Made by a program: the position numbers and the translations under genes
The notes under the pieces: generated by a model
Database searches by the model: none
What the model saw: the letters and a program-made list of their open reading frames with translations, nothing else
Told to the model about the DNA's origin: nothing
Shown: positions 5,928 through 8,580 of the stretch, in pieces
Numbering within the stretch: the first letter of the stretch is position 1
Layout: each line of letters opens with the position of its first letter
Source: Epinephelus fuscoguttatus
Lineage: Eukaryota > Chordata > Actinopteri > Perciformes > Serranidae
Direction: 5' to 3'
Length of the DNA stretch: 64,000 nucleotides
Assembly (NCBI RefSeq): GCF_011397635.1
Contig: NC_064774.1
Location: 1,612,520 to 1,676,519, forward strand

Positions 5928-8580
5928 TCACCTGATGGTGCGGTACATCATGAAGTCGACCGTGGTGCATCGTGGGAACTTCCCGATGGAGCTCTCCTCC
6001 ACAGGTGTGTAGACTTTGATCTGACGCATGTGCGTGTCTCTGCCGTTCTGGTGGTTGGCGAGCACCGCGATCTGGATCATGAAGGTGCTGATGGGCTCGT
6101 TTGTCCGCTACAACACACACACACACACACAGGTCATTAGTGATGCTCTTACTCACAACTTCCTGCCACAACACATAAAGATACACACAGTGTCACATGA
6201 AGAGGGCTGCTGTCGTTGAGTCCTTTTCAGATTTTAGCGCTGATTGGATTCAGAATAAAATATAAACACATTTATCAATTTTTTTATTGAACAAAAAGAA
6301 GCCAAAGTTCTCAAATGTTAAATGTTTTCTGAACACAAGCTGCCAAAAACAAACAAACATACAAAAAAGTAAAAATAAAAAAGCAAAATACTGACTGTAT
6401 TCAGGAACCGTCTGATCAAACTAGTTTAATAATATAATAAAAGTTGCAGCAGCAGAAAGACAGAAATATTTACAGTTAAATAGAGAAACAAGAAGTAAAT
6501 AATCAGAAGTAAAAAAATAAACTGTACGAGAACAATTAAACTCAAAACTACAAGGCACCTCATTTAAATTTAGTTTATTATTATTTATTTTCTATAATTT
6601 TTTAAAAAGGTGTTAAGTTTAATTTTAATTTGAGCTTTTTTATAATCTTATTTTCATATTTTGATTATATTTATTCACTTAAAAAGGGGAAACCTCACAT
6701 ATGTAGATATTATTTTTATTATTTATTCTTTTAAAACACAACAGCTGATTTTTATTTTTTAATTTATTTAATGATTTATTAGTAAATTCTCACATATGTA
6801 AATGTTACTTTTATTAATCTCTTAATTTTGAATAAATAATTTTACCAATTTTTTATTTATTTAATTTAAATAAATACATGTAATTAGAATATACCTTCAC
6901 GAAAAATTTCAATATATTAATTAAAATGAATAAATAGGTAATAATAATAATAATAATAATAATAATTACAATAATAATAATAATAAAATAACCCTTTGAA
7001 ACCTGAGTGAATGGGCTTGATTTGGAAAAAAGGCAATGAGAACTTTATGAAATGACCTGAAAATGAGCAACATAATAAGCGTTTTTTGAGGAAAAAAAAA
7101 AAAAATATATATATATATATATATACATATATATATACATATATATATATATATATATATATATATATATATACCTGATAAAATATAGCAACACAGTAAA
7201 ACAAATATATAATTACATATATATACATATATATATACATATATATATATATATATATATATATACATATATATATATATATATATATATATATATATAT
7301 ATATATATATGAAATAATATATATATACATATATATATATATATATATATATATATATATATATATATATATATAATATATATATAAATATATATATATA
7401 TATATATATACATATATATATATATATATATATATATATATATATATATATATATACATATATATATATATATATATATATACATATATATATATATATA
7501 TATATATATATATTACCTGAAAATAAGCAACACAGTAAAACAAAATAATAATTACCTTAAAAATACACAAAAAATAAAAGTATAAAAAGAAGAAAATTAC
7601 CTAATAAGGATTGGTCAAAAATGTAATGAAATAATATCTATTTTCTGTAACATAATTTTAAACATATATTAAGAATACTTAAGAGCTTTGATAATGTTCC
7701 AATAGTGCTCATAACCTTTTCCCACCATGTTTTCTATAGAAATCAAACCAATACTTTGAGGTTTTGATGGTTGAAACGCGTGTTAAAGGCACCTGACCCA
7801 GGTTTGAAAGGGTTTAAATACACTCACCACTAGGTGGCACACTTGCGCCATCTAGTGGGCGCAGAAAATAAAGGAAATGGTTCATGACACAACTAAATAT
7901 TTATATTAATAAATGTGAGCAGCCTAGATCGATCAATGCCAGCGTTCTGCACTTGACGGCTCCTTGATGCTTGGAGCTACAGGCTGGTTTTCAGAGCCAA
8001 AAAGGTATTATGGGTCACATGAAAGATGAGGTCACGTCAAACACCGACAGCCCTGAGAACCATTCATGAAACTAACCTGTACAGGAAGAAGCAGAGGAAT
8101 CACAGACACACACCGATTAGAAACGTTACCTGATTCATCAGAGAGATGTGGATCCACCCGCTGGGCTCCACCATCTCTAACTGCTGCAGAGAGGAAGAGG
8201 AGGAGGACGATGGTGAGAACAGAGCACATCATGTGAAGCGTAAACACCCAGTACTCCCAGTACTCCCAGTACCAGCAGGACCGTGTTACCTGAACTGTAT
8301 GTTGACTAAATGAGGCTGCGATCCGTCTGACTGCCAGTAGGTCTCCAGGTTGTCGTCCCTCAGCTGATCCACTCCGAAACCTGGACACAAGTTCAGCTAC
8401 CATCAGACTACACTCACCCCTCTGTGTATTGTATCTGTATCTGTGCATTAGGGTTTGGAGCTGACCGGGTTTACAGGAGGAGAGGGACCACACCGCCTGG
8501 GAGCCGATCTCACGAACCGTCCCGGTCCGCTCCAGCTGCTTCGGGTCAGCGCCAGGTGGCGTCTTGCTCGGGGTGGCCAT
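5928..8580 (-). CDS. ANAPC10: anaphase-promoting complex subunit 10 (DOC domain), one exon missing
   Basis: APC10 is the DOC-domain substrate co-receptor of the anaphase-promoting complex E3 ligase. Four coding exons are visible on the minus strand: 8466-8580 (ATG at 8578-8580, [15 protein letters not shown]), 8290-8380 ([19 protein letters not shown]), 8130-8183 ([18 protein letters not shown]) and 5928-6107 (ending in [14 protein letters not shown] and a stop). Together they give about 146 residues against about 185 in vertebrate orthologues. The part missing is the central DOC segment of about 39 residues between 8290 and 8183. Only 106 bp separate those exons and no open segment there matches. 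Direct splicing would join AG to CAGTTAGAG and give a stop at once. Exon 1 ends at a less usual GTCAGC donor. Either one exon has been lost from the assembly or the locus is damaged. Confidence 0.93.
6187..7102. other. ANAPC10 last intron, AT-rich part
   Basis: AT-rich intronic sequence with a TAA-triplet run (about 6940-6985) and A/T homopolymer patches. No gene is seen. Confidence 0.6.
7103..7514. repeat. long (TA)n microsatellite
   Basis: Roughly 400 bp of (TA)n with occasional TACATA interruptions, inside the last ANAPC10 intron. It is broken at about 7173-7220 by ACCTGATAAAATATAGCAAC. A near-identical phrase follows the array at about 7514-7545 and a related one precedes it near 7050, so the TA arrays are separated by copies of one short flank. 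Length in the assembly is likely unreliable. Confidence 0.9.

Follow-up and report, generated by a model that had tools for sequence, protein, structure and literature searches.

ANAPC10, also known as APC10 or Doc1, is a core subunit of the anaphase-promoting complex (Pfam PF03256) and is essential in vertebrate cells. According to published work, its 80s and 140s loops contact the C-terminal part of the D-box, Glu87 is invariant, and alanine at Ser88 and at Asn147 attenuated the activity (PMC5717348). A second body of work of relevance here deals with false losses in genome assemblies. A study of four vertebrates reports that the false losses of their older assemblies most often took the form of exons that were missing and of Ns within the coding sequence, and that the climbing perch, the fish of that set, had the fewest missing exons (PMC9516821). 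Among the literature matches listed, as far as their titles and the beginning of their abstracts tell, none was found to describe a fish ANAPC10 that has lost an exon.

The locus described here lies in a window (the whole stretch of DNA that was analysed, 64,000 nt without any N) corresponding to C23:1612520-1676519 in an assembly of 26 contigs and 1,046,998,120 bases. Human APC10, a query identical to the PDB copy over 185 residues, was compared to the window by tblastn and the exon boundaries were checked by script. Both agree that four ANAPC10 coding exons are present on the minus strand, intact and in order, and that one internal exon corresponding to human residues 70-109 is absent. This is what a previous sequence-only reading of the same DNA had proposed for an internal exon of the DOC domain, although its estimate of about 39 residues and about 118 nt, close as it was, has to be corrected to 40 residues and 121 nt. 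The features of the locus are as follows, a slash marking an exon boundary.

8466..8580, minus strand: ANAPC10 coding exon 1, 115 nt, ATG at 8580, donor CCCG/GTCAGC.
8290..8380, minus strand: ANAPC10 coding exon 2, 91 nt, ending in phase 2 (TTC AG/).
8184..8289, minus strand: gap in place of exon 3, 106 nt, starting with GTAACA and ending with CTCTGCAG.
8130..8183, minus strand: ANAPC10 coding exon 4, 54 nt, phase 0 at both ends, 18 residues.
6108..8129, minus strand: ANAPC10 intron 4, 2,022 nt.
5928..6107, minus strand: last ANAPC10 coding exon (exon 5), 180 nt including the stop.

Compared to ANAPC10/APC10 (Doc1), the start, the first 68 residues, an 11-residue segment, the 140s loop region and the Ile-Arg tail are highly conserved, whereas residues 70-109, a segment from the middle of the DOC beta-sandwich that carries the 80s D-box loop, are unencoded and the join disrupts the frame. 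Exon 1 shares 95% identity with residues 1-39 of the human protein by tblastn, and 66 of the 68 residues encoded by exons 1 and 2 are identical to it. Exon 4 matches at 12 of its first 15 residues, the last three being outside the comparison. The last exon exhibits 89% identity with human residues 130-185 by tblastn (50/55 identical over the compared stretch), retains the residue aligned to Asn147 in the 140s loop and ends in YRTIR followed by the stop, i.e., with the C-terminal Ile-Arg tail. The PF03256 profile matches exons 1 and 2 together (68 aa) at 1.3e-28 and the last exon at 5.6e-16. The complete DOC domain with both D-box loops is not encoded, the 80s loop being gone. Since Glu87 and Ser88 of this loop of the D-box co-receptor fall in the missing exon, the lost segment is not a dispensable one.

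The 440 nt of coding sequence that survive contain neither a stop nor a frameshift. A processed retrocopy or an old pseudogene was ruled out, as introns are kept and the four exons are free of stops and frameshifts. ANAPC10 is arranged head to head with ABCE1, as are the human genes. The identity to human APC10 and ABCE1 indicates a vertebrate genome, and the compact introns together with the variants of ABCE1 and APC10 suggest a fish. In the non-coding region just upstream of coding exon 1, a degenerate direct repeat of about 160 nt occurs three times (8642-8803, 8956-9117 and 9219-9380), the second and third copies being 79% and 63% identical to the first. Intron 4 contains an (AT)n array of roughly 400 bp at 7105-7513 and, about 50 nt from its beginning, a strong acceptor-like sequence at 8077-8100 (a pyrimidine-rich run and TACAG on the minus strand), behind which no ANAPC10-like coding sequence was seen.

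The reading frame gives the size of what is lost. Exons 1 and 2 amount to 206 nt, which brings the end of exon 2 to phase 2, and with exon 4 starting in phase 0, the missing exon must have a length of 1 mod 3, as the sequence-only reading had deduced from the same phases. Forty codons and one base make 121 nt, and once these are restored the coding sequence reaches 115+91+121+54+180 = 561 nt, a multiple of three encoding 186 residues and a stop. Without them, translation ends after 70 residues if 8290 is joined to the first acceptor of the CAGCAG pair and after 69 if it is joined to the second, in line with the immediate stop that had been predicted for either NAGNAG choice. Spliced at its regular sites, the locus as assembled would thus yield a product of 69 or 70 residues.

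Splice sites were scored with a matrix built from the 17 introns of the adjoining ABCE1 gene, whose own ranges were obtained by leave-one-out. This gene also served as a local control.

11381..22846, plus strand: ABCE1, complete neighbour of ANAPC10, 18 exons, 17 GT-AG introns, 599 aa.

The donor of exon 1 scores 7.6, inside the ABCE1 range of 3.9-10.7. The 106-nt gap starts with the donor of intron 2 (CAG/GTAACA), which scores 8.9 (ABCE1, 3.9 to 10.7), and ends with the acceptor of intron 3 (CTCTGCAG/CAG), which scores 6.8 (ABCE1, -1.0 to 20.5). These scores agree with the earlier view that the two exons flanking the gap, only 106 bp apart, are bordered by a donor and an acceptor from two different introns. 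The gap thus seems to unite the 5' part of intron 2 with the 3' part of intron 3. The possibility that the missing exon is concealed within 8184-8289 was ruled out, given the lack of detectable homology and two stops in the read-through frame, the translation ending after 69 residues. The gap was also rejected as part of a dispersed repeat, for its one match in the genome is itself in a search that skips simple repeats.

Rescue by altered splicing was also considered. None of the four exon-skipping combinations (e1+e2+e4+e5, e1+e2+e5, e1+e4+e5 and e1+e5) keeps the frame. Between exons 2 and 4, 18 candidate GT/GC-AG introns of at least 60 nt keep the frame open to the last exon. All 18 have at least one site scoring below the ABCE1 range (donor <3.9 or acceptor <-1.0), and each of them deletes, along with the 80s loop, some of the middle of the DOC domain. 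A single one uses the regular donor at 8290, with an acceptor CCCAG/CGG inside exon 4 that scores -5.3, and yields 138 residues.

The gap also contains a short tandem repeat detected by TRF.

8247..8272, no strand assigned: tandem 9-mer CCCAGTACT, 2.9 perfect copies, inside the gap.

A triplicated AGTACTCCC had been described at this place and taken as a possible trace of slippage or mis-joining. A tandem repeat does exist, but it consists of 2.9 copies of CCCAGTACT, and AGTACTCCC itself matches exactly only twice, two or more matches being reached in 6 of 100 shuffles of the window. For 106-nt stretches drawn at random from the window, the probability of wholly containing a perfect array with a period of 6-40 is about 0.007, and that of having any such array about 0.029. 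Judged after the fact, these values weakly suggest slippage or a repeat-related junction at the 9-mer, and the array may have been left behind by a deletion or a mis-join.

The missing segment was searched in the window and in the whole assembly. Used alone against both strands of the window, it was not found by tblastn (best E 0.91). A 45-residue query that includes a few flanking residues retrieved three matches at E <= 10 in the 1.047-Gb assembly, none of them at the ANAPC10 locus, and the missing exon was not found there; the best match (E 0.419), on contig C12, is short with 14/27 identical residues, and this stretch may belong to the DOC domain of another protein. As a positive control, a 32-residue query covering exon 2 recovered its own locus at 2.4e-16, along with one chance match at 2.7. 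No paralogue or retrocopy of ANAPC10 was found in the 26 contigs (1.047 Gb) with either PF03256 or full human APC10. The profile gave three matches, all at the ANAPC10 locus (exons 1, 2 and 5), and missed the 18-residue exon 4, which indicates that very short pieces can escape such a search, the control covering 32 residues. The full human protein gave seven matches at E <= 10, three at the locus and four elsewhere (E 0.77-8.2). As far as these searches reach, the exon appears absent from the searched sequence, and if both homologues of an animal had this form, no full APC10 would be left to it, since neither another copy nor the exon was found. A second copy may possibly lie outside the 26 contigs, e.g., in unplaced sequence or in the alternate haplotype. 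In prokaryote and viral collections no relative was confirmed, 30 stretches having matched a pattern in one search and 4 in another.

The remainder of the window informs on the quality of the assembly. ABCE1 encodes 599 residues without internal stop, and seven tblastn pieces tile residues 10-208 of the OTUD4 query in order (weakest E 0.031; the sequence of this query is unconfirmed). These two observations argue against a generally poor assembly and are silent on one local error. An attempt to obtain a base rate of lost exons from the CCT genes (PF00118, 57 matches) showed uncovered stretches of the profile in 5/5 multi-exon loci inspected by eye, which are indistinguishable from weak sensitivity of the profile.

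The window further harbors several repeats. A 14-bp minisatellite (GTGAACGAGGAGAC, 37 copies) occupies its left edge (1-515), and a dispersed repeat family is present in several copies at 1814-4295, 32337-32988, 44203-45142 and 54934-55435, some of which end in minisatellites of the TGTTTAAYGTG type. Direct copies of an interspersed element, 89-97% identical in several blocks, are found at 25023-25910 and 39131-40519, each with a 22-bp tandem repeat. A 288-nt inverted pair (17740-18027 and 38671-38958) is 94% complementary, and the open frames that overlap its two arms read alike. On the minus strand, 63439-63999 is a C2H2 zinc-finger coding stretch (best 1.1e-7, below Pfam's own cut-offs), which we assume from the human neighbourhood to be perhaps ZNF827. 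Rfam and tRNA scans of the window yielded nothing.

Five readings may account for these observations, and the odds that we attach to them are a judgement and not a measurement. We favor, with a probability of roughly 0.55, that exon 3 exists in the animal and is missing from this assembly; we infer that the error is in the sequence and not in the animal. Introns 2 and 3 would have been joined with the loss of at least some 121 nt, and probably of a few hundred including the intron flanks; the junction perhaps fell at or close to the tandem 9-mer still visible in the fused intron, and the biological gene would be an ordinary ANAPC10 of five coding exons and about 186 residues. Because the 440 nt of remaining coding sequence bear no stop or frameshift, the loss is either recent or unreal; the intact exons, the splice sites within the local range and the high identity to human look like those of a gene under selection until very recently. 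False exon losses commonly produce such a pattern. The locus resembles the published ones in that a conserved gene is without an exon that has no match elsewhere in the assembly, but those cases were shown by comparison of same-species assemblies and reads, whereas a single assembly was analysed here (PMC9516821). Several observations speak against an assembly loss. The surroundings are good, with no N, the (AT)n array carried through, ABCE1 complete, OTUD4 tiled and 26 contigs in all; the 106 nt of the gap make a clean, regular intron without exon remnant; and the published survey treats older assemblies among which the fish had the lowest number of missing exons (PMC9516821). The main rival to an assembly loss is a true germline deletion of exon 3 on one homologue, or in the assembled haplotype, while the other homologue keeps the exon. 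The clean junction within introns, the tandem 9-mer in the joined intron and the good local assembly are all in its favor, as are the flanking exons, undecayed as a young allele would show them. We nevertheless regard it as a tentative alternative, because such a deletion in a single-copy gene should be rare in the population; equally tentatively, the deleted allele would then be a null, recessive and tolerated in the heterozygote.

The sequence-only reading had left the choice between an assembly deletion and a truly altered locus backed by another functional copy. The former leads, and the pair must be completed by the deletion private to the sequenced animal just described. The latter, in which the deletion is fixed here and a functional ANAPC10 lies on an unplaced scaffold or a sex-specific chromosome, is in keeping with an assembled locus whose regular splice sites cannot encode APC10, and the set of 26 contigs may be incomplete. 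On the contrary, no second copy was found in 1.047 Gb, and the intact exons, together with the head-to-head arrangement with ABCE1, identify this locus as the main one, which makes a copy elsewhere improbable. That the species is truly without the exon, with an APC10 shortened by cryptic splicing or no APC10 at all, seems very unlikely. The 18 candidate cryptic introns do open a frame, e.g., for the 138-residue product, but every one relies on at least one site below range and removes the 80s loop, and the undecayed exons oppose an old loss. Just as doubtful is the corollary that the sole APC10 of a vertebrate lacks the Glu87/Ser88 loop, the APC/C then reading D-boxes through the coactivator alone or through a shortened APC10. 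Finally, the lowest rank goes to an exon that has moved or can no longer be recognised (diverged, inverted or trans-spliced): both strands of the window and the genome up to E 10 were searched, three candidates were scored of which the best off-locus match was that on C12 (E 0.419), and the exon 2 control returned 2.4e-16. No supporting evidence was found for such an exon, and within the searched sequence it is largely refuted.

If the favored assembly loss is correct, this locus clearly illustrates how an exon can be falsely deleted even where contiguity is high and the assembly otherwise looks good, and a broken APC/C subunit would pass into the gene sets derived from it. If the deletion is real and heterozygous, the animal would carry a null allele, recessive in its effect, of a gene of the cell cycle. 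The matter would have biological import only for a fixed deletion, which would imply that the APC/C of a vertebrate can function with one of the two APC10 D-box loops missing.
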